From Planctomycetota bacterium (lineage in GTDB: Bacteria > Planctomycetota > UBA1135 > GCA-002686595): 64,000 nt of DNA. The notes beneath the pieces are model-generated. The model had not been told where the DNA came from. It made no database searches and was given only the letters and a program-made list of their open reading frames with translations. Location of the stretch: positions 248,001 through 312,000 of the forward strand of contig JABACD010000001.1 in NCBI GenBank assembly GCA_014237855.1, read 5' to 3'. Positions within the stretch are counted from its first letter, which is position 1. Each line of letters begins with the position of its first letter. Shown here one piece after another: positions 25,996 to 40,401 of this stretch. Made by a program: the position numbers and the translations under genes.

Positions 25996-26748
25996 ATGAA
26001 TATCGTTGCCTGCATCAAGCGGGTCCCCACGACCGACGCACAAGCCAAGGTCAATGCGGACGGCAAGAGCCTCGACACGTCAGGCTTCCAGTACATGACC
26101 TCCTTCTATGACGAGATCGCAGTCGAGGAGGCAATCAAGACCAAGGAAGCCCACGGCGGCGAGGTGACGGTTCTCACCGTCGGGCCGACGGAAGGCACCA
26201 AGGAGGTTCGTGAGTGCATCGCGAAGGGTGCTGATGGGGGAGTCATCCTGACTGATCCCGATTGGGGCCAGCGCGACAACCTCTCTACAGCCAAGGTCCT
26301 GGCGGCCAGGTTGTCCGAGATGGGGGCAGAGCTGGCCTTCTTTGGCAAGGTGGCCACGGACAGGGACAACAATGCCGTAGGTGCCATGACGGCCACCAAG
26401 CTCGGCTGGGCGTGCGTCACTGATGTCATCGAGCTGTCCCTGGCCGATGGAAGAGGCACGGCAAAGCGCGAGTCCGAGAGCGGTGTCGAGTCCGTCGAGT
26501 TCTCCCTACCCGCCATCATCACCTGTGACAAGGGACTCAACGAGCCTCGCTACGCCGGCCTCAAGGGCATCATGGCTGCCAAGAAGAAGCCCCTCGAAGA
26601 GGCTCAATTCGAGAACGTGCCCAATCAGATAGAGGTCGAAAGCCTCGAGCTCCCGGCGCCTCGCAAGGAGGGCCGCATCGTCGGCGAGGGCCCCGAGGCC
26701 GTCGCCGCGCTCATCGACGCCCTCCGCAACGAAGCCAAGGTCCTCTAA
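25996..26748 (+). CDS. etfB: Electron transfer flavoprotein subunit beta
   Basis: This 250-residue ETF beta subunit binds AMP. With EtfA it shuttles electrons from acyl-CoA dehydrogenases to ETF:quinone oxidoreductase. Motifs: CIKRVPTTDAQAKV at the N-terminus, YDEIAVEEAIKTKE, FFGKVATDRDNNAVG and the family signature region TCDKGLNEPRYAGLKGIM. Length is normal. etfA follows after 17 bases, as in most bacteria. Confidence 0.95.
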   Translation: MNIVACIKRVPTTDAQAKVNADGKSLDTSGFQYMTSFYDEIAVEEAIKTKEAHGGEVTVLTVGPTEGTKEVRECIAKGADGGVILTDPDWGQRDNLSTAKVLAARLSEMGAELAFFGKVATDRDNNAVGAMTATKLGWACVTDVIELSLADGRGTAKRESESGVESVEFSLPAIITCDKGLNEPRYAGLKGIMAAKKKPLEEAQFENVPNQIEVESLELPAPRKEGRIVGEGPEAVAALIDALRNEAKVL

Positions 26749-26765
26749 GCACAAGGAAAAGCAGA

Positions 26766-27722
26766 ATGTCCACCATCCTCGTCTTCGCCGAACACGGCGC
26801 TGGAACCGTCCGCCGCGCCTCTCTGGAATGCATCGCCGCTGCCAAGGCCACGGGAAGCGACGTCGTCGCAATCGTCACGGGCCAAGGCGCTACCGATGCT
26901 GCCGAGAGCCTTGGGAACCACGGCGCCTCCAGGGTCGTCTGCCTGACAGGCGCCGATCAGTACAGCCCCGATGCCACTGGCGTCGATATTGCCGCGGTCG
27001 CCTGCGACCTGGGTGTCAGGGGATTCCTGGCAGCGGCCACCAGCACCGGCAAGGACCTCGCTCCTCGAGTGGCGATGCACCTTGACTCGGTGCTGTTCAG
27101 CGACTGCACCGGTCTCGAGGCAGCCGGAGACTCCTTCAAGATCTCCCGCCCATGGCTCGCCGGCAAGGCCATCGCGAACTGCACCTCCACAGGTCCGGTC
27201 TTCTGTGCCACGACTCGCCTCAACTCGTTCGCCACCAACGAAGTTGGAGGGACTGCTGAGGTCAGCGAACGCCCGGCATCCACCGATGGAAAGGTGATCG
27301 TGACGGGGATCACGGCCAAGGAAGGCGGCAAGCTCGATGTGGCAGAAGCGCCGATCGTCGTCTCGGGTGGTCGTGGGCTCAAGGAACCGGAGGGCTTCAA
27401 GATCATCGAGGACCTGGCCGAGGCCCTTGGTAACACTGCGGTCGGTGCCAGCCGCGCAGTCGTCGATGCAGGCTGGAGACCCCACTCCGAGCAAGTTGGC
27501 CAGACTGGAAAGGTCGTCTCCCCTGGGCTCTACATCGCTGTTGGCATCTCGGGAGCAATCCAGCACATTGCCGGAATGAAGACCTCCGGAGTCATCGTCG
27601 CCATCAACAAGGACCCCGATGCTCCGATCTTCAAGCTTGCCGACTACGGCATCGTGGGAGACGCCTTCGAGGTCGTGCCCGCACTCACAGCTGCAGTGAA
27701 GGAGCTGATGGCAACGGCCTAG
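26766..27722 (+). CDS. etfA: Electron transfer flavoprotein subunit alpha
   Basis: This 318-residue FAD-binding ETF alpha subunit has the C-terminal FAD domain motifs [44 protein letters not shown] and [10 protein letters not shown]. The ATG is preceded by AAGGAAA. It forms an operon with etfB and is followed by a hairpin terminator. It would serve fatty-acid or amino-acid oxidation. Confidence 0.95.
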
Positions 27723-30586: not shown

Positions 30587-30946
30587 CTAGACCAGTTCCG
30601 TGATCCTTGCCAGAGGGCGACCGATCGCCGCGCGGCCCTCGTTGATGAAGATGGGGCGCTCCAGGAGAATCGGACTGGAGGCCATCACGACGAGGTGCTC
30701 TTCGTTGCTGGAATTGGCCGTGAGCCCCGCCTCGCGATAGGCGCTCTCGCCACTACGCACCCACTCTCGAGCGTGCTCGCCCAGGTAGCCATGCAGCTCC
30801 TGCAACTCCTCCAGATCCAGGGGATCGTCGAGATAGAGGCGCTCATTGAAGGTGATGTTGTTTTCCTCCAGCCAGCACCTGGCAGCTCGGCTCTTGGAGC
30901 AATTGGGGTTGTGCAGGAGAAGCGGTTGAGAATCTGAGAGGCTCAC
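30587..30946 (-). CDS. ArsC-family thioredoxin-fold reductase
   Basis: This 119-residue protein belongs to the ArsC/Spx thioredoxin-fold family. The catalytic Cys is in HNPNCSKSRAA near the N-terminus, and the C-terminal block ILLERPIFI...AAIGRP carries the conserved Arg. GTG 30946 is chosen because it lies 16 bases after the kynB stop; the ATG at 31012 would overlap kynB. As last gene of the tryptophan operon its role is unclear. It may be a glutathione/glutaredoxin-dependent reductase and need not act on arsenate. No other ars gene is near. Confidence 0.75.
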   Translation of the reverse strand: MSLSDSQPLLLHNPNCSKSRAARCWLEENNITFNERLYLDDPLDLEELQELHGYLGEHAREWVRSGESAYREAGLTANSSNEEHLVVMASSPILLERPIFINEGRAAIGRPLARITELV

Positions 30947-30962
30947 GTGGTTCTGGAATCGG

Positions 30963-31592
30963 TCAGGAGGTTTCAGGGAGAAGAGCTGCCCGGACCGGAG
31001 AGGCGTCAGCACCCTCGAGCTTCAGGGGCAAGGCAATCAAGGTGTAACGGCCCGGTGGAGCAGCCGTGAGAACGAGGCCTTCCAGGATCGCCAGGTCCCG
31101 GGAGTAGAGAACCTGATGCGACTCCAGCTGCTTGTCCAAGAAGAGGTCAGCCGATGGAGTATCAATCCCAACAAGCCTGACTCCCTGGTCGGCCAGGTGC
31201 TCGAGCAGCTCGGGCGAGAAAGAAGCAAAGTCCTCATTGAACCTGTCGGGGTCTGGATACGTCCCTGTCTTGAAGAGCAGTCGTTCGACGAATGGGCCCG
31301 GCGGGAGGTCAGCGACTTGAATCCGCTCGCCACGACCAACATCGACCGCGATCACCTGGCAGGGGCCGTAGTAGAGATCGAGGTCACGCCCTTCGATCCC
31401 CACACCATCGGCGTGGTAGTGACTGGGGGCATCTGCGTGTGCCCCCAGGTGAACGGTCCCGGTGATCTCGCCAAGGTCGATGTTCTCGCCATCAGCAATG
31501 CGCAGGTTGGCCTTGTACGAATACGGCGCATCCCCAGGCCAAACGCCGATGCGTGACGAGATCGTCGGTGTGATATCGATCAGCCTGGACAT
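30963..31592 (-). CDS. kynB: Kynurenine formamidase (cyclase family)
   Basis: This 209-residue metal-dependent enzyme hydrolyses N-formylkynurenine to kynurenine and formate. The metal motif HLGAHADAPSHYHADG (HxxxHxD) is intact, with LIDITPTI at the start, WPGDAP, and GIDTPSADLF in the C-terminal half. Length matches bacterial KynB. A GTG directly before ATG 31592 (31595) is also possible. Membership in the operon with tryptophan 2,3-dioxygenase supports this role over other cyclase-family amidases. Confidence 0.9.
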   Translation of the reverse strand: MSRLIDITPTISSRIGVWPGDAPYSYKANLRIADGENIDLGEITGTVHLGAHADAPSHYHADGVGIEGRDLDLYYGPCQVIAVDVGRGERIQVADLPPGPFVERLLFKTGTYPDPDRFNEDFASFSPELLEHLADQGVRLVGIDTPSADLFLDKQLESHQVLYSRDLAILEGLVLTAAPPGRYTLIALPLKLEGADASPVRAALLPETS

Positions 31593-31603
31593 CACAGGGA
31601 AGA

Positions 31604-33055
31604 TCAGGCGTCTCCGGCTGCGGCCAGCACCTTGAACTCCACGGCGATTGGCGTGGGCAGGGCACGAATAGCGATCGTGGTGCGGGCTGCCCCGATGCCC
31701 TCAAAGGCCTCCTTGTAGGCCCGGTTGAACTCCTCGAAGTCGCGATCCATGTCCACCAAGAACACGGTCACATCCAGGACCTTCTCGAGACTCGAGCCGG
31801 TGGCCTCGAGGATGCTCCTGATGTTCCCGATCACTGCCTGAGTCTGAGCGTAGACATCGTAGTCACGAGGATTTCCCTCCGCATCTCGGATCGGTCCTCC
31901 TGGAATCGAATTGTCCGCTGCCTGACGAGGGCCAACCCCTGAGAGAAAGAGGAGGTCTCCAACACGACGGGCATGGGGATAGGCGCCGACGGGCTTGGGG
32001 GCCGCGCTCGTACGTAGGGCTGTCTCGGGCTCATTCTCGGGCACTTCGGAGACTGGCGCGGCACCGAGGTGGGCTGCATGGCTCGAGCCCCCCACCGGCA
32101 CGGTGGCCGCTGCAGGTTCGGTAGCTCTTGCCTCCGAGTTCGCAGATCCACCGAGTACATCTCGATTGCCTGTAAAGACCTCCACATCGGCCTCGTCGAA
32201 CTCCTTGACCCCAACCCCGGCCTCCGCAGGAGTCAGGGAGATGACTGCCCCTCCGGTGCCGTAGAGCGCTCCATATCCGTGCACGGTACCCGCGTAGTTG
32301 TTGTGGGCACCCATGACCGCCGACAGCCACCACATTGGCTTGAAGTTGACCACCTTGGGGATGCGGATCTGCTTGTGAATCTCTCGGGAGAGCTGCGCAA
32401 CATCCTCGAGCCTGCCCTCCGCGAAGAATTCCAACAGCTTCTGGTTCCACTCCTCGTCCTTGTCGGAGTGGATGTGGTCCTCTGCGGGGTCAATGAACCT
32501 GGTGAAGAGCCTGTTGGACAGCGTCATGACCACAACGACCGCTGCCTTCTTGCCCTGCGCTGCCAGGGCATCGACAACGGACTTTCCGAAGACGACCGTC
32601 TCGCTGCGATCCGCATAAGCGTTGCTGGAGAGGATGACTGCCGGCAGCTCGTTGTTCGGGTTCAGGAGCTCAAGAGCCACCACCGATCCCGTATCGATAG
32701 GAAAGCCGTGGTAGGCCACCGTTCTCGCGCAAAGCCCACGCCCCTGGGCACTCTCGCAGATCCCGCCTGCGAGCTCCGAATCGATACGAAACTTGTAGGG
32801 GATCGAGCCCAGGTCATGGAAGAGCTCATCCACATGGGTCCACTCAGGCTCGGGAAGCGCCTGGACCTGATGACCGATGATCGAGGGCCACATGGTCGAG
32901 TAGACGATGAGGACATCAGCCTCACTCTCCTGGATCTCCTCTCTCGCTTTCTCGAAGGCTCCACGCAATCTGGAGTAGCCCTCGTTGGCTTCGGGAGTCA
33001 GCAGGGGTTGAGGTAGACCGGGGACGATCAGTCCCTTGACGACGGGATGACTCAT
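31604..33055 (-). CDS. 2-Aminophenol 1,6-dioxygenase alpha-like subunit fused to RidA-type 2-aminomuconate deaminase domain
   Basis: The protein has 483 residues. Residues 1-275 match the LigB-superfamily alpha subunit of 2-aminophenol 1,6-dioxygenase (VPGLPQPLLTPEAN, GHQVQALPEPEWTHVDE, AYHGFPIDTGSVVAL, NFKPMWWLSAVMGAHNNY). As expected for an alpha subunit, the iron ligands are missing (PQP and STMW replace PHPPH and SPHW). A low-complexity Ala/Glu/Pro linker (276-350) leads to a RidA/YjgF domain (352-483) with AYPHARRVGDLLFLSG, the family Arg in GAARTTIAI and a late Glu in VEFKV. That domain resembles 2-aminomuconate deaminase (AmnD). ATG 33055 overlaps the beta-subunit stop by 4 bases. The fusion joins steps separated by the dehydrogenase. 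Confidence 0.85.
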   Translation of the reverse strand: MSHPVVKGLIVPGLPQPLLTPEANEGYSRLRGAFEKAREEIQESEADVLIVYSTMWPSIIGHQVQALPEPEWTHVDELFHDLGSIPYKFRIDSELAGGICESAQGRGLCARTVAYHGFPIDTGSVVALELLNPNNELPAVILSSNAYADRSETVVFGKSVVDALAAQGKKAAVVVVMTLSNRLFTRFIDPAEDHIHSDKDEEWNQKLLEFFAEGRLEDVAQLSREIHKQIRIPKVVNFKPMWWLSAVMGAHNNYAGTVHGYGALYGTGGAVISLTPAEAGVGVKEFDEADVEVFTGNRDVLGGSANSEARATEPAAATVPVGGSSHAAHLGAAPVSEVPENEPETALRTSAAPKPVGAYPHARRVGDLLFLSGVGPRQAADNSIPGGPIRDAEGNPRDYDVYAQTQAVIGNIRSILEATGSSLEKVLDVTVFLVDMDRDFEEFNRAYKEAFEGIGAARTTIAIRALPTPIAVEFKVLAAAGDA

Positions 33056-33948
33056 GAGACCGCCACTCCTTCGGGGAACCAACCCACGACCGCATTCCCC
33101 GTTCCAATCACCGTGCCGTAGGCGTAGACCTCTCCAGGCTCGGTTGGGTAGTCCAGCGCAGACATCAGCCAGGCAAAGCTGCCTGCGTCCATCTCCGACT
33201 TCGCCTGGGTGATGAACTCCGGCATGACGTCGACCATCTGCCGGGTCTGGCCCTTGCGAACCATCTCGAGCAGCTGCATATCCCAGAGATACAATGCGTG
33301 GCTCGTGATGTGCTCGCGGCTCATGTCCTCGGGGATCTCCGCCTCGGTGGTGAAGTGCCTGTGCGAGAGCGAGGAGCTGCACAGCAGGGCCGCTTTCTTC
33401 CCGGATTGCTCCACAGCGCGGCGAGTCGCCTTCCCCAGCGCAGTGGCCATCTCCTGCATGACCTCGACTCCATAGTAGGATTCGGATCTGTTGGACGAGA
33501 TTGAAACGATCGGCAGGTCCCACTGAGGTCGGGTCAGGTGACAACAAACGATCGTGCCGTAGTCCACGCGGAAGTCCGGGTTCCGCATCATCTTCATCTC
33601 GAGGCCTTCACTGACGGCCTCATCGTGAATGGCCTCGGCCAGCTCCACATCCACGTTCATCTCGTAGTGGTAGCGGAAGAGGTTCGGGAAGATCGGGTCA
33701 ACCGACAGGGAGTCGAACTTGGGCACTCCCAGGAGATGCGTACCGACGTAGGTCTGCCAGTGTGGTGAGTGCACCACGAGAACATCCACATCGCGCTTGT
33801 CGATGTCCGCACGCAGACGCTCGTACCCCCAACGCAGGGTCTCCCACCCGCACTCCGCTGTGGGTTCGTTTTGCGGAGGGTTCTCCGCGTAGATCAGGTG
33901 CGGAGGATGGGGCGCAAGGGCGCCCGCGACGATACGTCCGTTAGGCAT
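33052..33948 (-). CDS. amnB: 2-Aminophenol 1,6-dioxygenase beta-like (catalytic) subunit
   Basis: This 298-residue class III extradiol dioxygenase cleaves the ring of 2-aminophenol to 2-aminomuconate 6-semialdehyde in the known family. The start LAPHPPHLIYAENPPQNEP and VDPIFPNLFRYHYE are characteristic. Predicted Fe(II) ligands are His14, His63 (HSPHW) and Glu252 (SEMDAGS), with His196 (LSHRH) as acid/base. These sit one residue after the positions I recall for the Comamonas/Pseudomonas enzymes. ATG 33948 lies 10 bases after the ALDH stop; the longer frame to 34032 overlaps it. Related substrates such as 3-hydroxyanthranilate cannot be excluded. Confidence 0.88.
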   Translation of the reverse strand: MPNGRIVAGALAPHPPHLIYAENPPQNEPTAECGWETLRWGYERLRADIDKRDVDVLVVHSPHWQTYVGTHLLGVPKFDSLSVDPIFPNLFRYHYEMNVDVELAEAIHDEAVSEGLEMKMMRNPDFRVDYGTIVCCHLTRPQWDLPIVSISSNRSESYYGVEVMQEMATALGKATRRAVEQSGKKAALLCSSSLSHRHFTTEAEIPEDMSREHITSHALYLWDMQLLEMVRKGQTRQMVDVMPEFITQAKSEMDAGSFAWLMSALDYPTEPGEVYAYGTVIGTGNAVVGWFPEGVAVS

Positions 33949-33958
33949 GGTAGTACTC

Positions 33959-35434
33959 TCAGAGCTGTATGCAGATGTTTCGACTCTCGCTGAAGAACTC
34001 GAGTGAGTGGCGGCCGCCCTCACGCCCCACACCGCTGTCCTTCATCCCTCCGAATGGAACCCTCAGGTCACGCAGCAGCCAGGTGTTGACCCAGACCATG
34101 CCACTCTCGACCTCGGAGGAAACCCGGTGAGCCCGCTTCAGATCCTTGGTCCAGACCGAAGCGGCAAGACCGTACCTGACGCCATTGGCGATCTCGATTG
34201 CTTCGGCCTCGGTGTCAAAGGGGTGCAGGGTAACGATGGGGCCGAAGATCTCTTCTGTTGCACAGCGACTGTCAGGAGAGAGCCCCGCAATGACCGTGGG
34301 TGAATAGAACGCACCGGCAGCGAGATCTCCCGTGAGCTCGGGCCGCTTGCCCCCCAGAAGGACCTCGCCGCCCTCCTCGATTGCCAATTGCGCGTAGCCT
34401 TCAACCTTGTCGCGGTGACCTGTGCTGATGAGCGCTCCAAAATTTGTCTTGTCGTCCTGGGGGTCACCCGGATGAAGAGCGCCCACGCGCTCGACAAATG
34501 CTGAGACGAATCGATCGTAGATCGAGCGCTCGATCAACAGGCGCGAGCCGCAAAGACAGACCTGCCCCTGATTTGCGAATGAAGCACGAGTCACTCCCTC
34601 GATCGTCTCGTCGAAGTCACAGTCTGCAAAGACGATCGTCGGGTTCTTCCCGCCAAGCTCCAGGGAGAGCTTCTTGAACATCGGCGCAGCAGTTGCCGCG
34701 ACCTGCTTACCCGTGGAAGTACCTCCGGTGAAGGAAATGCCGGCTATCTGGGGGTGCTCAACGATCGACTGGCCAACTTCTGCGCCAAGGCCATGCACGA
34801 GATTGAAGCATCCGGCAGGCGCATCGATCTCGGCAAAGATCTCCGCCAGCGCCGAGGCCGTCAGCGGCGTCAGCTCGCTCGGCTTGGCAACCACACAGTT
34901 CCCCATCGCGAGGGCTGGCGCGGTCTTCCAGCTGAGAAGGTAGAGGGGTAAGTTCCAGGGCGTGATCAGTCCGAAGGTCCCGACCGGCTTGCGCAAGGTG
35001 TAGTTGAGCGCACTCTGCATCGAGTGACAGTCCGTGCTCTGATGCCTGACTGCCCCCGCGAAGAAGCGAAAATTGGCCACGGCTCGAGGAATATCGACGC
35101 TACGCGCGAGTGAGATTGGCTTGCCGGTATCGAGTGACTCCAGGTGCGCAAACTCCTCCAACCGCGACTCGATTGTGCCGGCCACCGCATCCAGGAGATC
35201 GGCTCGTTCCGCATTGCTCGACTTGCCCCAGGAACCTCGCCGAGCAGCTTCAGCTGCTCGCACTGCGGCCTCGACGTCTGAACTATTGGAGCGAGGAATC
35301 CTGGCAAGTTCGATATCGCGAGCCGGATCGAGATCCTCCAGCCACTCTCCCCCCGTCGCAGGGACGAACTCGCCGCCCACGAAGTTCGGGACGCACTCAC
35401 CGCTCGCATGCTTCAAGAGGCTCAACGGGCTCAC
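33959..35434 (-). CDS. amnC: Aldehyde dehydrogenase, 2-aminomuconate semialdehyde type
   Basis: This 491-residue NAD-dependent ALDH has the oxyanion/NAD motif TPWNLPLYLLSWKTAPALAM, Glu259 in LELGGKNP and catalytic Cys293 in NQGQVCLCGSR. The C-terminal WLLRDLRVPFGGMKDSG carries the Arg pair typical of ALDH8/hydroxymuconate- and aminomuconate-semialdehyde dehydrogenases, which bind substrate carboxylates. In the 2-aminophenol route it oxidises 2-aminomuconate semialdehyde to 2-aminomuconate, the substrate of the fused RidA domain. It starts at GTG 35434, overlapping the previous stop as GTGA. Confidence 0.88.
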   Translation of the reverse strand: MSPLSLLKHASGECVPNFVGGEFVPATGGEWLEDLDPARDIELARIPRSNSSDVEAAVRAAEAARRGSWGKSSNAERADLLDAVAGTIESRLEEFAHLESLDTGKPISLARSVDIPRAVANFRFFAGAVRHQSTDCHSMQSALNYTLRKPVGTFGLITPWNLPLYLLSWKTAPALAMGNCVVAKPSELTPLTASALAEIFAEIDAPAGCFNLVHGLGAEVGQSIVEHPQIAGISFTGGTSTGKQVAATAAPMFKKLSLELGGKNPTIVFADCDFDETIEGVTRASFANQGQVCLCGSRLLIERSIYDRFVSAFVERVGALHPGDPQDDKTNFGALISTGHRDKVEGYAQLAIEEGGEVLLGGKRPELTGDLAAGAFYSPTVIAGLSPDSRCATEEIFGPIVTLHPFDTEAEAIEIANGVRYGLAASVWTKDLKRAHRVSSEVESGMVWVNTWLLRDLRVPFGGMKDSGVGREGGRHSLEFFSESRNICIQL

Positions 35435-36597
35435 TGAAGCCTCCCGAAGCCGCTGTCGTCGTGACGCTCCATGTCGTAGTACCAGCGATCGTCATCAGGG
35501 TCCCACTCGTCCCAGGTAGGGTGGTCCTCCAGGGCTGACACGAGATCGTCCGGCACCACACCGGGAACAATGAACGCCTTCTGACGATGCATCTTGTAGG
35601 GGTTACGAAGGTCGAATCCGAGCACGCCCAGCACTGCCCTCGCAATGTACCAGGTCGCCTGGCTATCCCATCCGTGCGCGATCTTGATCACGATACCGAG
35701 CCCCTCTGGATAGTCGGGGTGCTCGATGGCCATACCCAGGAGGCCGTCTGCTCCTTCCTTGGCGATCACGCGTCCGTCGCAGGCCTTGATGATCGAGCTG
35801 TCGAGTCGATTGAACCCTCCGATCAGATCTGGGTGTCGAACCATGGCCTCCCAGGTCCAGTCCTTGCCACGCTCGGTTACCAGGCTCGCGTAGAGCCTCG
35901 CCAGCTCGTTCACAGTGTTCGAGGTGGTCGGCAAACCACAGCCATCACGAGCTACCCGGAGGGGCTTCCAGTCATCGCCAAGAGTTCTCCGGAGCACCTC
36001 GAGATAACCCTCGAAGATCGGATGCTGGGGCAGGGTATAGCCGGCCCTCGTCCAGCCCTTCAAGCGACAGCCACGCAAGAGCGCGGCATGCTCTCCTGAA
36101 CAGCAGTGATACCAGCGGCGCGCTCTCCGAACCTGTCGCCCGAATTGCACAAGAGGCACATCGAGTGGCGTCAACATCAGGGGACGCTCTTGCTCGCTCA
36201 GAATCGACTGCGCTGCCGCCACGTGTTCGGTGTCCCCATTGTGCGAGGCGCAGCCGATTGCCTTCTGTTTCCAGTCGAGCACCGGCTCAAGCTCCTCGGC
36301 GAAGACCTTCATCATGAAGGGCTTCATCATGCTTCGGCCGTAGCAGAGGACGTTCCCGCCAAAGGAGTGAACTATCTGACTGCCTGAAGCCCAGGCCACC
36401 GCACCATGAATCGTGGTCTCGCTGACATCGTTCCTCCGGTAATCCACCAGCGGTTCCCAGGCGACATCTCGACCGGTTGCAATCCCCTCGTGCTGTTCAC
36501 CCAGCGCGCTTCGAGGATAGATCGCAGAGCCTGGCCGCCCCTGATTGATAGCGGAATAGCCGGACGAACCATCGACGCCAGAACGAGCCTTACTCAT
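35431..36597 (-). CDS. Asparaginase-II-family hydrolase with altered signature
   Basis: This 388-residue protein belongs to the thermolabile (Rhizobium-type) asparaginase II family. Ser89-x-x-Lys92 (GRSMMKPF), Ser118 (CASHNGDTEH), Cys166 (HCCSGEHAALL) and DGCGLP at 218-223 match the family blocks. The usual CSGKH reads CSGEH (Glu169), suggesting changed substrate recognition. These enzymes cleave the beta-amide of aspartate derivatives. In this operon I infer cleavage of a beta-aspartyl ester or anilide made from kynurenine. ATG 36597 overlaps the monooxygenase stop. Plain asparaginase activity remains the conservative call. Confidence 0.75.
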   Translation of the reverse strand: MSKARSGVDGSSGYSAINQGRPGSAIYPRSALGEQHEGIATGRDVAWEPLVDYRRNDVSETTIHGAVAWASGSQIVHSFGGNVLCYGRSMMKPFMMKVFAEELEPVLDWKQKAIGCASHNGDTEHVAAAQSILSEQERPLMLTPLDVPLVQFGRQVRRARRWYHCCSGEHAALLRGCRLKGWTRAGYTLPQHPIFEGYLEVLRRTLGDDWKPLRVARDGCGLPTTSNTVNELARLYASLVTERGKDWTWEAMVRHPDLIGGFNRLDSSIIKACDGRVIAKEGADGLLGMAIEHPDYPEGLGIVIKIAHGWDSQATWYIARAVLGVLGFDLRNPYKMHRQKAFIVPGVVPDDLVSALEDHPTWDEWDPDDDRWYYDMERHDDSGFGRLQ

Positions 36598-37844
36598 CCG
36601 GAAACCTCCTGCCTGGCCACCATGAGCGGAGCTACCTCCTCCATGAAAGCCCGCATATTTCGCATGACTCGCGCCGAGTCATGATTGAAGAAGTCGAACC
36701 AGAGCATCAGCCGGTCCTCAGGATGAAAGCGCTCGGCCATTTGATCGGCGACTTCCTGGACATTTCCCACCAGGGCATTGTTTGCAGCGCCTGAGACCTT
36801 CTTGGGGTCGATCGTCCCTTCCAGGGCATGCCAGTACTCACCAAGCGCCCGAGTGGCCTCGTCTTGAGCAGCGAGGCTGCGCTCTTCATCGGAGAGACCT
36901 TCCTCGTGGTTGAGGAAGACGAAAACGGTTCGAGGCATGTAGGTACGCTGCCAGTCACCGCCCGAGGGATGGTACTTCTCCCTCAGCCTCGAGTGTGTCC
37001 CCTCGATTATTTCTGAACTCGTGATCGAGAGGTTGAACACCTGCACCGGCATGAACTTGTTGACGTACTCCTGGAGGGCGGGGTCGTGTGAGCCGATCAC
37101 GGGCTGCAAGAGCTCACGCCGAAAGTCCTGGGGGATCAGCTTGATCTCCTCGAAGACCCAGCGCTTGGCCACGTCCACCGAATCAGGCCTGGCCTCCAAA
37201 GCATCGCGCTCCATCGCGGCCTCCTGAACTCGCTGCCAGTCCTCATCGCTACGGAAGTTGGCCCGAGTGAAGCTCTGAGCAGGAACGTCCTCACTACTCA
37301 GGACCTCTCCCGAGAGGAGGCGCAAGAAGATCTCCGCGGCCTCCTTGAGGATCAACCCCTTGAGTGCTGGCCAGGCAGCCTCCTCGACCCCATCCCGAGG
37401 CACAATCCCGCTTGCAAAGTTCATGAACTCGAAGCGCCCCAGGGCGAAGCCGTAGTTCAGCCGGCGCCGCTCCTTTGGGTCGATGCCATGCAAGGTCAGG
37501 AAGGTCGCCGCTCGCTCGGCGTGAGCAATCGGCCCTCCCATACAGACGATGTTGCTGATAGCCGATCCGACCTCGATCTTCTTCGTGCGGGCAAACACCC
37601 GTGTTGCCAGCTGCAGGATGTCCGCGTTGAGCCCAACCTCACCCTTCCAGTGAGGGATGACCGGCTTGCGGTTACGCTTTTGAACCTCCGAGGAGAGGTG
37701 CGACTCGGCTATCCAGGCAGTACCGAACCCCAGCTCATCAGCCAGCTCGACCTGCTCGAAGAAGTTACGGAACATCTGCGCCTCATCCGGAAGGTCGCCC
37801 CCCACAGGTGTGTGGCAGATACTGAAGAAGACGTCGTACTTCAC
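36594..37844 (-). CDS. Luciferase-like (LLM) flavin-dependent monooxygenase
   Basis: This 416-residue member of the bacterial-luciferase/F420-FMN TIM-barrel superfamily shows the conserved N-terminal block (FFEQVELADELGFGTAWIAE), SHLSSE, and VGSAISNIVCMGG with AERAATFLTLHG. LLM enzymes use FMNH2 (or F420) from a separate reductase; some are type II Baeyer-Villiger monooxygenases. GTG 37844 (protein MKYDVFFSICHTP) is chosen, 8 bases after the SDR stop; the in-frame ATG at 37994 lies inside the SDR gene. Its position directly before the asparaginase-like gene suggests consecutive reactions. The substrate (kynurenine) is inferred. Confidence 0.8.
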   Translation of the reverse strand: MKYDVFFSICHTPVGGDLPDEAQMFRNFFEQVELADELGFGTAWIAESHLSSEVQKRNRKPVIPHWKGEVGLNADILQLATRVFARTKKIEVGSAISNIVCMGGPIAHAERAATFLTLHGIDPKERRRLNYGFALGRFEFMNFASGIVPRDGVEEAAWPALKGLILKEAAEIFLRLLSGEVLSSEDVPAQSFTRANFRSDEDWQRVQEAAMERDALEARPDSVDVAKRWVFEEIKLIPQDFRRELLQPVIGSHDPALQEYVNKFMPVQVFNLSITSSEIIEGTHSRLREKYHPSGGDWQRTYMPRTVFVFLNHEEGLSDEERSLAAQDEATRALGEYWHALEGTIDPKKVSGAANNALVGNVQEVADQMAERFHPEDRLMLWFDFFNHDSARVMRNMRAFMEEVAPLMVARQEVSG

Positions 37845-37852
37845 GATGAGAA

Positions 37853-38650
37853 CTAGATGGACTTCAGGCGGCCACCATCGACCGGAATGGAGTGCCCTCG
37901 AATGTAGGCAGCTGCGGGTGAGGCCAGGAAGGCAATGGCCTCGGCTGTTTCTTCGGGCTGTGCAAGGCGCCCCTCGGGTATCTGGGCAATCCAACCCGAG
38001 CGCACATCATCGACACTCTTCCCGAGGCGGTCGGCCGTGGCCGCACCGAGTGACCCCAGGCGCTCGGTGTCGGTAAAGCCAGGCAACACGTTGTTGATGG
38101 TGACCCCGGGAGGCAACTCACTGGAGAGCGTCTTGGCCCAGGAAGCGACCGAAGCTCGTGTCAGATTACTGACGCCAAGGTTCGGGATCGGCTCACGGAC
38201 CGAGGTAGAGAGGACATTGATGATCCGGCCGTAGCCACCCTCGCGCATCCCCGGCAGGAGCTTCTGCACAAGCAGATGGGAGCAGAAGAGATGGCGTCCC
38301 AGCGCGATCTCCATGGCTGAGGTTTCTGCGGCCAGCAGCGGACCACCAGGAGGGCCCCCGGAGTTGTTGATCAATATCTGGATCGTCGGCGCATTGGCAA
38401 TGAGGTCATCGATCACCTCACCCAGCGCCTGGCGGTCGTCGAGGTCAGCGGAGATGACCCGAGCTGTCCCTCCAGCTGCGGACAGGTCTGCAGCAAGCTC
38501 TTCGAGGGAGTCGACTGAGCGCGCCAGGAGGCTCACCTCAGCCCCTCGGCTGGCGAGCAAGATCGCAGTAGCGCGACCGATTCCCTTGCTCGCACCACAG
38601 ACGAGTGCATGCTTGCCATCGAGGCGCAGATGGTCGTAGGCGTTATTCAT
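37853..38650 (-). CDS. Atypical short-chain dehydrogenase/reductase-fold protein
   Basis: The 265-residue protein has a clear Rossmann motif VCGASKGIGRATA and NNSGGPPGG in place of NNAG. At the catalytic site, the canonical Y-x-x-x-K is replaced by S-N-L-T-R (GVSNLTRASVASWAKTL), so the usual Tyr and Lys are both missing, as in a known divergent SDR subgroup. The C-terminal IRGHSIPVDGGRLKSI is typical. ATG 38650 overlaps the TDO stop by 4 bases. Its task in the operon is unknown; non-standard chemistry or a cofactor-binding helper role is possible. Confidence 0.82.
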   Translation of the reverse strand: MNNAYDHLRLDGKHALVCGASKGIGRATAILLASRGAEVSLLARSVDSLEELAADLSAAGGTARVISADLDDRQALGEVIDDLIANAPTIQILINNSGGPPGGPLLAAETSAMEIALGRHLFCSHLLVQKLLPGMREGGYGRIINVLSTSVREPIPNLGVSNLTRASVASWAKTLSSELPPGVTINNVLPGFTDTERLGSLGAATADRLGKSVDDVRSGWIAQIPEGRLAQPEETAEAIAFLASPAAAYIRGHSIPVDGGRLKSI

Positions 38651-39771
38651 GCGTCGGATTCCTTCGATGCGTGGAAGCCGTAGAACTCGGAGTTCGACAG
38701 CTCAGGCAAGGCCTTGCGGGGTAAGAGAATGGTGCGCACCGTCCAGAGGTCTGTGAAGATGCGGTACTTGAGGGTGCCCTCGAGGTAGTCGACACCAGAA
38801 GAGCCGCCGGTCCCCATGCGGCGCCCAATGACACGCTCCACCATGCGCACGTGGCGCGTTCGGAAGAGAACCATCAACTCCTCGAGGTCTACGATCGCGT
38901 CAATCAGGGTGCGAGGCCAGGCGAGCAAGGGGAGCTCACGATAGGACTCGATGAACAAGAGGGCGCAACGGACTCGAGAGCGCACCTGGCGACCATCCCC
39001 GGCAATATCCGTGGCCCGCAGGAAGGCTTGGGTCTCATCGAGAGACTTGCGTAAGCGCTGGGTCGCCTCCTCCGCGGTGACCGTGCCCTGACTGCCGTAG
39101 ATTCGAGCCTGGCTCTCATGATGTGCGCTCTGTGCTGCCAGGTACTCCTCGATAAAAGACTCAATGACCTCAGGGTCCCCGGGGTCCCGTGGGACCGAGG
39201 CCCGGATCGGCGTCCGGTAGAGCCATTCGTTGAGTGCATCCGCAAGGCTGCTCTCTTTCATTGCCGCCTGCAGACTTTGCATGGCTACCTTGCCGCCGCT
39301 TGAGTCATCGGCCAGCTCGTAAATAGCGCGAACCGGATCGCCAAAACCGGAGGACTCTCGTTGAGCGGGATCCAGCCCGAGCAAGATCTCGAGTTCGCGT
39401 AACTGGTAGGACTGGAAACCACTTGCCGGAACCAGCTTGTCGCGAAAGGCAAGAAAGTCCTGTGGAGTGAGGGTCTCCATGACCGCCCACTGACTCATGC
39501 TGTGCTCGAAGATCTTGGCCACGCGCTGCAGGTGACGTACGACGAGCGGAACGCTCTCTTCCTGCACCAGTTCGGCCGAGACCGCATCCCGTGCCAACCG
39601 GACCTCCCGCAAGACGAGCTTGAACCAGAGCTCGAAGACCTGGTGCACGATGATGAAGTGCAGTTCGTCAGCGCTCGGCTCCTCTCCATCCGGCAGGCCA
39701 TCCTGCAGTGAGAGCAATTGCTCGAGGCCCAGATAATCCCAATAAGTGGGCTTTTGCTTGCTCGTAGGCAT
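38647..39771 (-). CDS. kynA: Tryptophan 2,3-dioxygenase
   Basis: This 374-residue heme dioxygenase opens the indole ring of L-tryptophan to N-formylkynurenine. Family blocks: YWDYLGLEQLLSLQDG, DELHFIIVHQVFELWFKL (with the active-site His), SGFQSYQLRELE, and the C-terminal heme-ligand region RHVRMVERVIGRRMGTGGSS then DYLEGTLKYRIFTDLW. The length is longer than some bacterial TDOs because of an insert near residues 190-215. The ATG has GAGGG in its leader. It is the first committed step of the pathway encoded by this operon. Confidence 0.96.
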   Translation of the reverse strand: MPTSKQKPTYWDYLGLEQLLSLQDGLPDGEEPSADELHFIIVHQVFELWFKLVLREVRLARDAVSAELVQEESVPLVVRHLQRVAKIFEHSMSQWAVMETLTPQDFLAFRDKLVPASGFQSYQLRELEILLGLDPAQRESSGFGDPVRAIYELADDSSGGKVAMQSLQAAMKESSLADALNEWLYRTPIRASVPRDPGDPEVIESFIEEYLAAQSAHHESQARIYGSQGTVTAEEATQRLRKSLDETQAFLRATDIAGDGRQVRSRVRCALLFIESYRELPLLAWPRTLIDAIVDLEELMVLFRTRHVRMVERVIGRRMGTGGSSGVDYLEGTLKYRIFTDLWTVRTILLPRKALPELSNSEFYGFHASKESDA

Positions 39772-39807
39772 GGTTTCCCTCGCTCCCGGATTTGCTTGGG
39801 AGACCGG

Positions 39808-40401
39808 TCAATCGCTGTAGCAGAGACTCTTGTGCTTCTTGACGTAACCCTGGCCGCCTTCAATCGGCTCGAAGACATTACTGCCGTTCATCTCCCCACC
39901 ATAGACATGAATGGTGACCGCTGTCTCCGACTTGGGATTCTCGATCACATGATGATCATGCGGGGGGATCAATGCGCCGGCTTCACCCAGGCAGGCTCGC
40001 TGCTCCTTGCAGACCTCAAAGAGAACCTCGTCTTCGCTGGAGCTGGGGCTCATCTCGTAGGAGGTCACGTGAATCTCACCCTGGTAGACGCACTCCACAC
40101 ACCACATGTCGTCGTGATCATGGATCGGCGTCCCCTGACCTTCACCCCAGATCATGGCGACGACGGAGTAGCGACCATCGGGATCCAGGTGCAGCAGGCG
40201 TCGACCATAGCCGTTCTCGCATGGCTGAAGCACGTCTTCTGAGAGCACGAACTCCCCCGCCCTGACCGTCTCGATCAGCGCGTCCTTGACGGAGGCCGTG
40301 ATCGACTCGAAACAGCCCTCGTCCGCGGCCTCGTCGAGGCGCTTGATGAGAGCCTGGGTCCTGGATTCTGATTCCGGCATGGGGTCATCGTATCCAGCCA
40401 T
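39808..40401 (-). CDS. Cysteine-dioxygenase-type cupin protein
   Basis: The 197-residue cupin is related to cysteine/3-mercaptopropionate dioxygenases. Predicted iron ligands are His94 and His96 (GTPIHDHDDMWCVE) and a third His at about 151 (HHVIENP). RRLLHLDPDGRYSVVAMIWG matches the bacterial CDO-like group. ATG 40401 is used; ATG 40380 (MPESESRTQ) is equally possible. It is the first gene of the tryptophan operon, divergent from the YceH gene. It is not of the 3-hydroxyanthranilate-dioxygenase (HAAO) cupin type as far as I can see, so its role in the pathway is unexplained. Confidence 0.75.
   Translation of the reverse strand: MAGYDDPMPESESRTQALIKRLDEAADEGCFESITASVKDALIETVRAGEFVLSEDVLQPCENGYGRRLLHLDPDGRYSVVAMIWGEGQGTPIHDHDDMWCVECVYQGEIHVTSYEMSPSSSEDEVLFEVCKEQRACLGEAGALIPPHDHHVIENPKSETAVTIHVYGGEMNGSNVFEPIEGGQGYVKKHKSLCYSD

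Follow-up and report, generated by a model that had tools for sequence, protein, structure and literature searches.

A conserved operon that may carry tryptophan catabolism through oxidative release of 2-aminophenol and aspartate from kynurenine

How might a bacterium break down tryptophan by way of 2-aminophenol, with no recognised enzyme for the canonical cleavage of kynurenine? The question is raised by a minus-strand operon (40401-30587) in a 64,000-nucleotide stretch of contig JABACD010000001.1 from a Planctomycetota bacterium, the whole of which is called the window below. One group of its genes belongs to kynurenine formation and another to 2-aminophenol degradation, and an original prediction had proposed that a luciferase-like monooxygenase (LLM) and an asparaginase-II-type hydrolase (AspII) join the two, by Baeyer-Villiger oxidation of kynurenine and hydrolysis of the product. 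As a matter of pathway logic, LLM and AspII very probably convert kynurenine to 2-aminophenol and aspartate. The operon as a whole probably encodes a complete tryptophan catabolic pathway that would bypass KMO, kynureninase, 3-HAO and ACMSD through a Baeyer-Villiger step followed by hydrolysis. A fuller proposal is mildly favoured, namely a previously undescribed tryptophan branch in which LLM (a type II Baeyer-Villiger monooxygenase), AspII and the two subunits of 2-aminophenol 1,6-dioxygenase (APD) replace KMO, kynureninase, 3-HAO and ACMSD, and an SDR enzyme lacking the YxxxK motif leads on to 2-oxoadipate. The genes on which the argument turns are the following.

38647..39771, minus strand: tryptophan 2,3-dioxygenase (TDO), 374 amino acids; PF03301 206 bits, TIGR03036 177 bits against a cut-off of 390.7
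37853..38650, minus strand: atypical SDR oxidoreductase, proposed lower-pathway reductase; PF13561
36594..37844, minus strand: LLM, proposed FMNH2-dependent Baeyer-Villiger monooxygenase of kynurenine; PF00296 46 bits
35431..36597, minus strand: AspII, class-3-asparaginase-like hydrolase, proposed aspartyl ester/anilide hydrolase; PF06089 169 bits
33959..35434, minus strand: 2-aminomuconate-6-semialdehyde dehydrogenase (ALDH), named from its best PDB matches
33052..33948, minus strand: APD beta, catalytic subunit; matches to 3vsg_B and 8ihg_A
31604..33055, minus strand: APD alpha fused to a 2-aminomuconate-deaminase-like RidA domain, 483 amino acids; matches to 8ihg_B and 6izh
30963..31595, minus strand: kynurenine formamidase (KynB); TIGR03035 188.5 bits (cut-off 223.05), PF04199

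The genes follow one another almost without gaps in the order cupin, TDO, SDR, LLM, AspII, ALDH, APD beta, APD alpha-RidA, KynB, ArsC-like, and the gene list, positions and strand given in the original prediction were borne out. The SDR gene between TDO and LLM had been overlooked; it was present in 64 of the 80 related loci described below. TDO and KynB, which together make L-kynurenine, were clear family matches, both under the strict NCBIfam cut-offs. The start of APD beta is probably the ATG at 33948 and not position 34032 of the long open reading frame; the former aligns with the start of solved relatives. RidA, fused to APD alpha in the window, was a separate gene in at least six relatives.

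The second half of the operon pointed to 2-aminophenol as the ring-cleavage substrate. APD beta scored 372 bits against 3vsg_B (2-amino-5-chlorophenol 1,6-dioxygenase beta) and 363 bits against 8ihg_A (2-aminophenol 1,6-dioxygenase beta), with 35 bits against homoprotocatechuate dioxygenase 8iq8. The alpha part of the fusion protein (residues 5-275) scored 157 bits against the alpha subunit 8ihg_B, and its RidA part (residues 349-478) 92.5 bits against 2-aminomuconate deaminase 6izh, the next RidA-type match being at 62. The seven best PDB matches of ALDH were all 2-aminomuconate 6-semialdehyde dehydrogenases with 496-511 bits, against 394 bits for the match that followed. There is good support for the predicted formation of 2-aminophenol, since the closest matches of the dioxygenase, of ALDH and of RidA are in each case solved enzymes of the 2-aminophenol pathway.

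Enzymes of the canonical route were sought in 392 genomes of Planctomycetota, the phylum of the window, with an identity of at least 60% defining an LLM ortholog. Such orthologs were found in 19 genomes, and two more genomes (G101, G338) carried a homolog of 47% identity. TDO occurred in 171 of the 392 genomes and in all 19 with LLM. Kynureninase at 100 bits or more was found in 0/19 LLM genomes against 127/150 other TDO genomes (Fisher p = 7e-14, a value uncorrected for the relatedness of the genomes, which overstates their independence and to that extent tells against the proposal). For this count G234 (97.9 bits) and G116 (69 bits) were scored as lacking the enzyme, and the two genomes with the 47% homolog were left out. 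None of the 19 LLM survey genomes was matched by the kynureninase profile. In the window genome the sole TIGR01814 match was of 20 bits (cut-off 246.4); a hidden kynureninase was rejected, this protein being the cysteine desulfurase IscS (631 bits, over its family cut-off).

KMO and 3-HAO were compared between the 19 LLM genomes and 21 control genomes, made up of the two with the 47% homolog and 19 chosen from those over the kynureninase cut-off. The KMO query was a Planctomycetota protein that adjoins KynU and HAO and is 39% identical to the protein of locus L041, whose ten best PDB matches were all KMO. KMO at 300 bits or more was found in 0/19 LLM genomes and 21/21 controls, and 3-HAO (PF06052) likewise in 0/19 and 21/21. 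The KMO query gave no match in the window genome (G000), and its best score across the 19 LLM genomes was 33.5 bits. A hidden KMO in the window genome was also rejected; the best FAD_binding_3 match resembles the flavin halogenase CmlS (166 bits, under cut-off). Thus the kynureninase profile, FAD_binding_3 and the KMO query revealed no kynU or kmo elsewhere in the genome, and the original prediction survives this one of its own refuting conditions. ACMSD was absent from the 80 fetched LLM loci, and no genome-wide search for it was made.

The switch between LLM and kynureninase occurs within families. In family f1, four genomes (G000, G140, G183, G323) held LLM and no kynureninase, and ten TDO genomes (G030, G196, G240, G268, G293, G335, G340, G355, G359, G367) held kynureninase and no LLM. 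In family f23, LLM was found in G134, G149 and G178, and kynureninase in G018, G118, G164 and G191, with a TDO match in G191 only.

The partners of LLM were distributed with it. An AspII ortholog was found in 16 of the 392 survey genomes, all of them with LLM, and thus in 16 of the 19 LLM genomes; the next best match in any genome was at 34% identity and 98 bits. APD beta was present in 16/16 genomes with both LLM and AspII, in 0/3 of a genus with LLM only and in 0/21 kynureninase genomes, and was also detected in 13 of 16 additional genomes traced through named loci.

For a wider view, 84,980 species genomes were scanned for LLM and 214 relatives were confirmed; counts of loci refer to the best 80 of these 214, which overlap with the genomes of the phylum survey, and their phylum labels are submitter titles. 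By these labels the loci came from Planctomycetota (23), Myxococcota (15), Pseudomonadota (13), Acidobacteriota (7), Thermoplasmatota (7), Methanobacteriota (4, titled Euryarchaeota or euryarchaeote), Krumholzibacteriota (1), Latescibacterota (1) and Bdellovibrionota (1), with 8 unplaced. The cluster occurs in several bacterial phyla and in Marine Group II archaea. One bin with the LLM cluster (L076) is titled Klebsiella pneumoniae, a label that is evidently wrong. The phyla were intermixed on the LLM tree, a pattern suggestive of transfer but no proof of it.

Of the recognised genes, the one directly preceding LLM was SDR in 63 of the 80 loci, and the one directly following it was AspII in 59; the end of SDR and the start of LLM were no more than 150 bases apart in 54 loci. 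The predicted 4-base overlap of LLM and AspII is present in the window and, counting only cases where the AspII frame is open, was seen again in 36 of the 61 fetched loci holding both genes; in 18 AspII started within 150 bases, and in 7 it lay elsewhere in the locus. In 19 genomes the fetched stretch did not contain AspII, and 13 of these hold an ortholog of 66-76% identity elsewhere. The linkage on which the original prediction depended is thus conserved: for 74 of the 80 LLM loci an AspII ortholog is present, either within the locus itself (61) or in another part of the genome (13). Forty-seven loci extended at least 2.5 kb before and at least 6 kb after LLM; among these long-flank loci, ALDH was found in 41, SDR in 40, AspII in 39, APD beta in 30, APD alpha in 29 and RidA in 27.

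The set was kept even where its order was shuffled, as in L094 and L113, which read SDR-LLM-ALDH and then Rid-KynB-AspII-APDb-APDa. In addition, two types of TDO occupy the same slot, that of the window or a different enzyme of about 280 amino acids (29-41% identity), with the rest of the cluster unchanged. The arrangement is not a matter of chance, because it is found in many genera and several phyla. In ten loci (L123:8415-9170 and relatives) a formyltransferase-family gene stood directly upstream of SDR. L123 is a Euryarchaeota-titled bin in whose locus KynB was not seen, and there the formyltransferase-family gene could replace the formamidase.

The structural model of AspII (pLDDT 82.3) had as its 41 best fold matches only the R. 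etli asparaginases ReAV and ReAIV. In PMC8602277, PMC12292245 and PMC12951835, Ser48 of ReAV is described as the nucleophile and Arg47 as gripping the substrate alpha-carboxylate, with the metal anchoring the alpha-carboxy and alpha-amino groups. PMC11024299 describes Lys138 of ReAV as highly conserved and K138A as strongly reducing activity. Equivalents of Arg47, Ser48, Lys51, Ser80, Asp187 and Lys263, which include both Ser-Lys tandems, were invariant in 41/41 AspII sequences. The metal ligands Cys135 and Cys189 were kept in 39/41, and Lys138 was replaced by Glu in 39/41 and by Gln in 2/41. The AspII proteins of L080 and L090 change all three ligands together (Cys135 to Ser, Lys138 to Gln and Cys189 to Asp, in ReAV numbering). 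AspII thus appears to retain the parts for holding an aspartyl group and attacking its beta carbonyl, and to differ near the metal. The earlier guess of an asparaginase-like hydrolase is strengthened because the nucleophile, both Ser-Lys tandems and the alpha-carboxylate arginine are kept, hydrolysis itself being the presumed reaction. AspII also carries an N-terminal extension and an invariant RQVRR segment, and is about 25-35% identical to ordinary class 3 enzymes of the same phylum. The ordinary class 3 paralogs, that of the window genome (L182) and six others, read CSGKH. A role for AspII as an ordinary asparaginase was rejected on the ground that the window genome has this other class 3 asparaginase with the usual motif.

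The model of LLM (pLDDT 91.8) had a luciferase-type fold. Its matches included bacterial luciferase 1luc (E 2e-13), RslO1 7bip (E 1e-14) and the type II Baeyer-Villiger monooxygenase 4uwm (E 1e-10), with TM-scores of about 0.6 and identities of 14-17%. Searches with the LLM sequence found no match among PDB sequences, even with a 20-sequence profile.

Which genes serve the lower pathway was judged from 17 kynureninase-type loci. Four of these (L144, L146, L156, L159) hold TDO, KynB, KMO, KynU, ACMSD and HAO together with the trio SDR-ALDH-RidA; in L144, ACMSD scored 461 bits against solved ACMSD and HAO was over its NCBIfam cut-off. The trio was not seen in the stretches of 5.9 to 14 kb from L150-L152, which have strong kynureninase, and the remaining ten loci showed just a divergent kynureninase beside TDO (one also with KynB). 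Both kinds of cluster probably use the trio as a common module for 2-aminomuconate semialdehyde, the compound at which the canonical and LLM routes appear to meet, a point that the original prediction had overlooked. Since SDR accompanies ALDH and RidA in canonical clusters too, it probably serves the lower pathway. With the trio explained and the way from 2-aminophenol to 2-aminomuconate semialdehyde assigned to APD, only the conversion of kynurenine to 2-aminophenol is left, and LLM and AspII are the genes left over. The missing YxxxK motif had suggested SDR as the flavin reductase of LLM. This idea was rejected in favour of the lower-pathway role, the same SDR being found in canonical clusters whose fetched stretches contain no LLM; G101, one of the four genomes with the trio in a canonical cluster, has the 47% LLM on another contig.

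The canonical YxxxK of SDR enzymes is SxxxR (S161, R165) in 14/14 aligned orthologs and in 4/4 orthologs from canonical kynurenine clusters. The nearest sequence matches (5va8, 5vps, 5idx) are unassigned SDRs that likewise have SN..R in place of YxxxK. YwfH/BacG (3u49) and 6jh7 rank high among the profile matches; the latter we take to be AerF, and both presumably lack the catalytic tyrosine and perform conjugate reductions. To our knowledge, reduction to 2-oxoadipate has long been without an assigned bacterial gene. The window SDR is about evenly likely to be, or not to be, the reductase that would take 2-oxohex-3-enedioate or 2-aminomuconate to 2-oxoadipate. Reduction of 2-oxo-3-hexenedioate to 2-oxoadipate is mentioned as a possibility in PMC7842363. 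One of the 80 loci has a gene of the HglS family (2-oxoadipate dioxygenase/decarboxylase; L092:17043-17849) that shares 4 bases with KynB, a hint that 2-oxoadipate may be the end product. Pyruvate and acetaldehyde were rejected as an alternative end. 4-Hydroxy-2-oxovalerate aldolase (TIGR03217) was over its cut-off in 0/19 LLM genomes (best 67 against 286 bits), so the pathway probably does not end there; the decarboxylase and hydratase were not searched for.

Taken together, the proposed pathway would start with the conversion of tryptophan to L-kynurenine by TDO and KynB. LLM, as a two-component FMNH2 monooxygenase, would then insert one oxygen atom between the aryl ring and the ketone in a type II Baeyer-Villiger reaction, giving the beta-(2-aminophenyl) ester of L-aspartate, with a possible shift to N4-(2-hydroxyphenyl)asparagine. 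AspII would hold the aspartyl part as class 3 asparaginases do and hydrolyse the beta-acyl bond, releasing L-aspartate and 2-aminophenol. From the best matches to solved enzymes, APD alpha-beta is predicted to open 2-aminophenol to 2-aminomuconate-6-semialdehyde, ALDH to form 2-aminomuconate, and the RidA domain to deaminate this to 2-oxohex-3-enedioate. SDR would probably, with less certainty, reduce the last compound to 2-oxoadipate with NADPH.

The same endpoints might be reached by other oxygen chemistry, either ipso hydroxylation, in which the flavin hydroperoxide would attack the acyl-bearing ring carbon, or action of LLM on N-formylkynurenine before KynB, with a different substrate for the hydrolase. 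The logic of the gene set settles where the conversion begins and ends, but neither the sequence of steps nor their chemistry. KynB is encoded in this operon too, and with formylated intermediates AspII would likewise be left an aspartyl group to act on. We nevertheless consider this variant rather unlikely. An ipso route that freed the side chain itself would need no conserved asparaginase-like enzyme, and such an enzyme accompanies LLM in 74/80 cases. In addition, the 47% homolog of LLM points to free kynurenine or 3-hydroxykynurenine as substrate. In the two genomes that carry it (G101, G338; L041:4996-7682, L042:4954-7580), it overlaps a KMO-like gene by 4 bases, and the pair sits downstream of what reads as a cyclic-nucleotide-binding-type gene and, in L042, of an aminotransferase-like gene as well. 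This neighbourhood appears to be an independent link of the LLM family to kynurenines, yet one that indicates another use, possibly oxidation of 3-hydroxykynurenine for another product.

It is very unlikely that the dioxygenase instead takes another o-aminophenol, such as 3-hydroxyanthranilate or hydroxykynurenine, with LLM as a ring hydroxylase in place of KMO and AspII in a side activity such as amide salvage. LigB-type dioxygenases do take several o-aminophenols, and enzymes of the LLM fold include hydroxylases. The best PDB matches, however, were 2-aminophenol enzymes by a wide margin, and with kynureninase in 0/19 genomes the side chain of hydroxykynurenine would still need to be removed. 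Salvage fits poorly with an AspII type that occurs only with LLM in the 392 genomes (16/16), in a window genome that has a second class 3 asparaginase of ordinary motif. That LLM and AspII do unrelated jobs, sharing the operon by regulatory convenience or shared inheritance of a neighbourhood, is most improbable: a genus with LLM alone shows that LLM can exist apart from the rest and AspII lies elsewhere in some genomes (13/19 checked), but the set stays together while gene order varies (L094, L113), TDO types differ and several phyla are crossed, and it is mutually exclusive with kynureninase.

Several observations weigh against the route from kynurenine through LLM and AspII to 2-aminophenol. 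Among the 47 long-flank loci, TDO was found in just 17 and KynB in 21. In the phylum survey, 23 of the 150 TDO genomes without LLM also lacked kynureninase above 100 bits (e.g. G092, G259, G342, G387); TDO without kynureninase is therefore not unique to the LLM route, and these genomes may use yet another. One Planctomycetota genus (G140, G183, G323) and G399 have LLM without AspII or APD orthologs. Among draft genomes, G396 and G407 have AspII without an APD beta match, and G392 and G405 have APD without an AspII ortholog. The two genomes with the 47% LLM (G101, G338) also hold kynureninase, a second KMO and 3-HAO. The luciferase-type fold also hosts other chemistries. Finally, the flavin reductase that an FMNH2 enzyme needs was not among 20 Pfam-annotated neighbour proteins, the other neighbours not having been annotated; it may be encoded elsewhere in the genome.

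These same 20 proteins, taken from a clustering of neighbour genes (first 70 groups), included no gene of the meta pathway either. In the LLM-only genus (L037, L038, L039, the same as L091, L100, L105) LLM is 60-61% identical to that of the window, and the LLM neighbours examined were unrelated. Another hydrolase beside TDO was looked for in this genus and none was seen; TDO there adjoins what read as response-regulator and histidine-kinase-like genes.

Two further genes complete the run in the window.

39808..40401, minus strand: cysteine-dioxygenase-like cupin, most upstream gene, probably accessory; PF05995 43 bits
30587..31012, minus strand: ArsC-like protein, last gene, probably outside the pathway; PF03960 49 bits

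At the thresholds used, the cupin upstream of TDO recurred in one of the 80 related loci (L052, the nearest relative), and the ArsC-like gene in 0/80. On the plus strand at 25996-27722, about 3 kb from the operon end, lies an electron-transfer-flavoprotein-like pair (beta, then alpha) with NCBIfam matches under cut-offs.

Textbook tryptophan breakdown splits the kynurenine side chain with kynureninase; microbes with the LLM cluster, mostly metagenome bins, seem to do so oxidatively, which would recover aspartate instead of alanine. Among the literature matches listed, seen as titles and abstract openings, none concerned the oxygenation of kynurenine to 2-aminophenol; most subscription papers and all preprints fell outside that scope. 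If the proposal is true, functions would be assigned to two orphan enzyme subfamilies (LLM and AspII) and their automatic annotations as monooxygenase and asparaginase corrected. It would also account for possible tryptophan use by those Planctomycetota, Myxococcota and Marine Group II archaea that bear the cluster, and would provide enzymes with which amino acids could be oxidised in a Baeyer-Villiger reaction and aspartyl aryl esters or anilides cleaved.

Several known systems resemble parts of the operon. The 2-aminophenol meta-cleavage pathway (AmnAB, CnbC family: 3vsg, 8ihg, 7txy) shares with it the alpha-beta dioxygenase, the semialdehyde dehydrogenase and the RidA-type deaminase. That pathway is known from aminophenol and nitroaromatic degradation and is not known to be joined to TDO and KynB; it differs further in its 4-hydroxy-2-oxovalerate aldolase end module, which was not over cut-off in any of the 19 LLM genomes. 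With type II Baeyer-Villiger monooxygenases and bacterial luciferase (3,6-diketocamphane monooxygenase 4uwm; 1luc) LLM shares the luciferase-type fold, but it is only 14-15% identical to them in the fold alignments, has no profile-level sequence match in the PDB, and is proposed to act on an amino acid that is an aryl ketone. AspII shares with the class 3 L-asparaginases (ReAV, ReAIV; PF06089) the fold, both Ser-Lys tandems, Arg47, Asp187 and mostly the two cysteine ligands, and differs in having Glu or Gln for the zinc ligand Lys138, an N-terminal extension and RQVRR. The window SDR has SxxxR where classical SDR dehydrogenases have YxxxK, and the tyrosine-less enzymes YwfH/BacG (3u49) and 6jh7 belong to another pathway. 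The canonical kynurenine pathway, in its 2-aminomuconate (glutarate-type) branch, has KMO, kynureninase and 3-HAO, which are absent from the window genome, where LLM, AspII and two APD subunits are found instead. It has the same start (TDO, KynB) and the same end module (AMSDH, RidA deaminase), and four Planctomycetota clusters of this kind have the same atypical SDR as the LLM operon.

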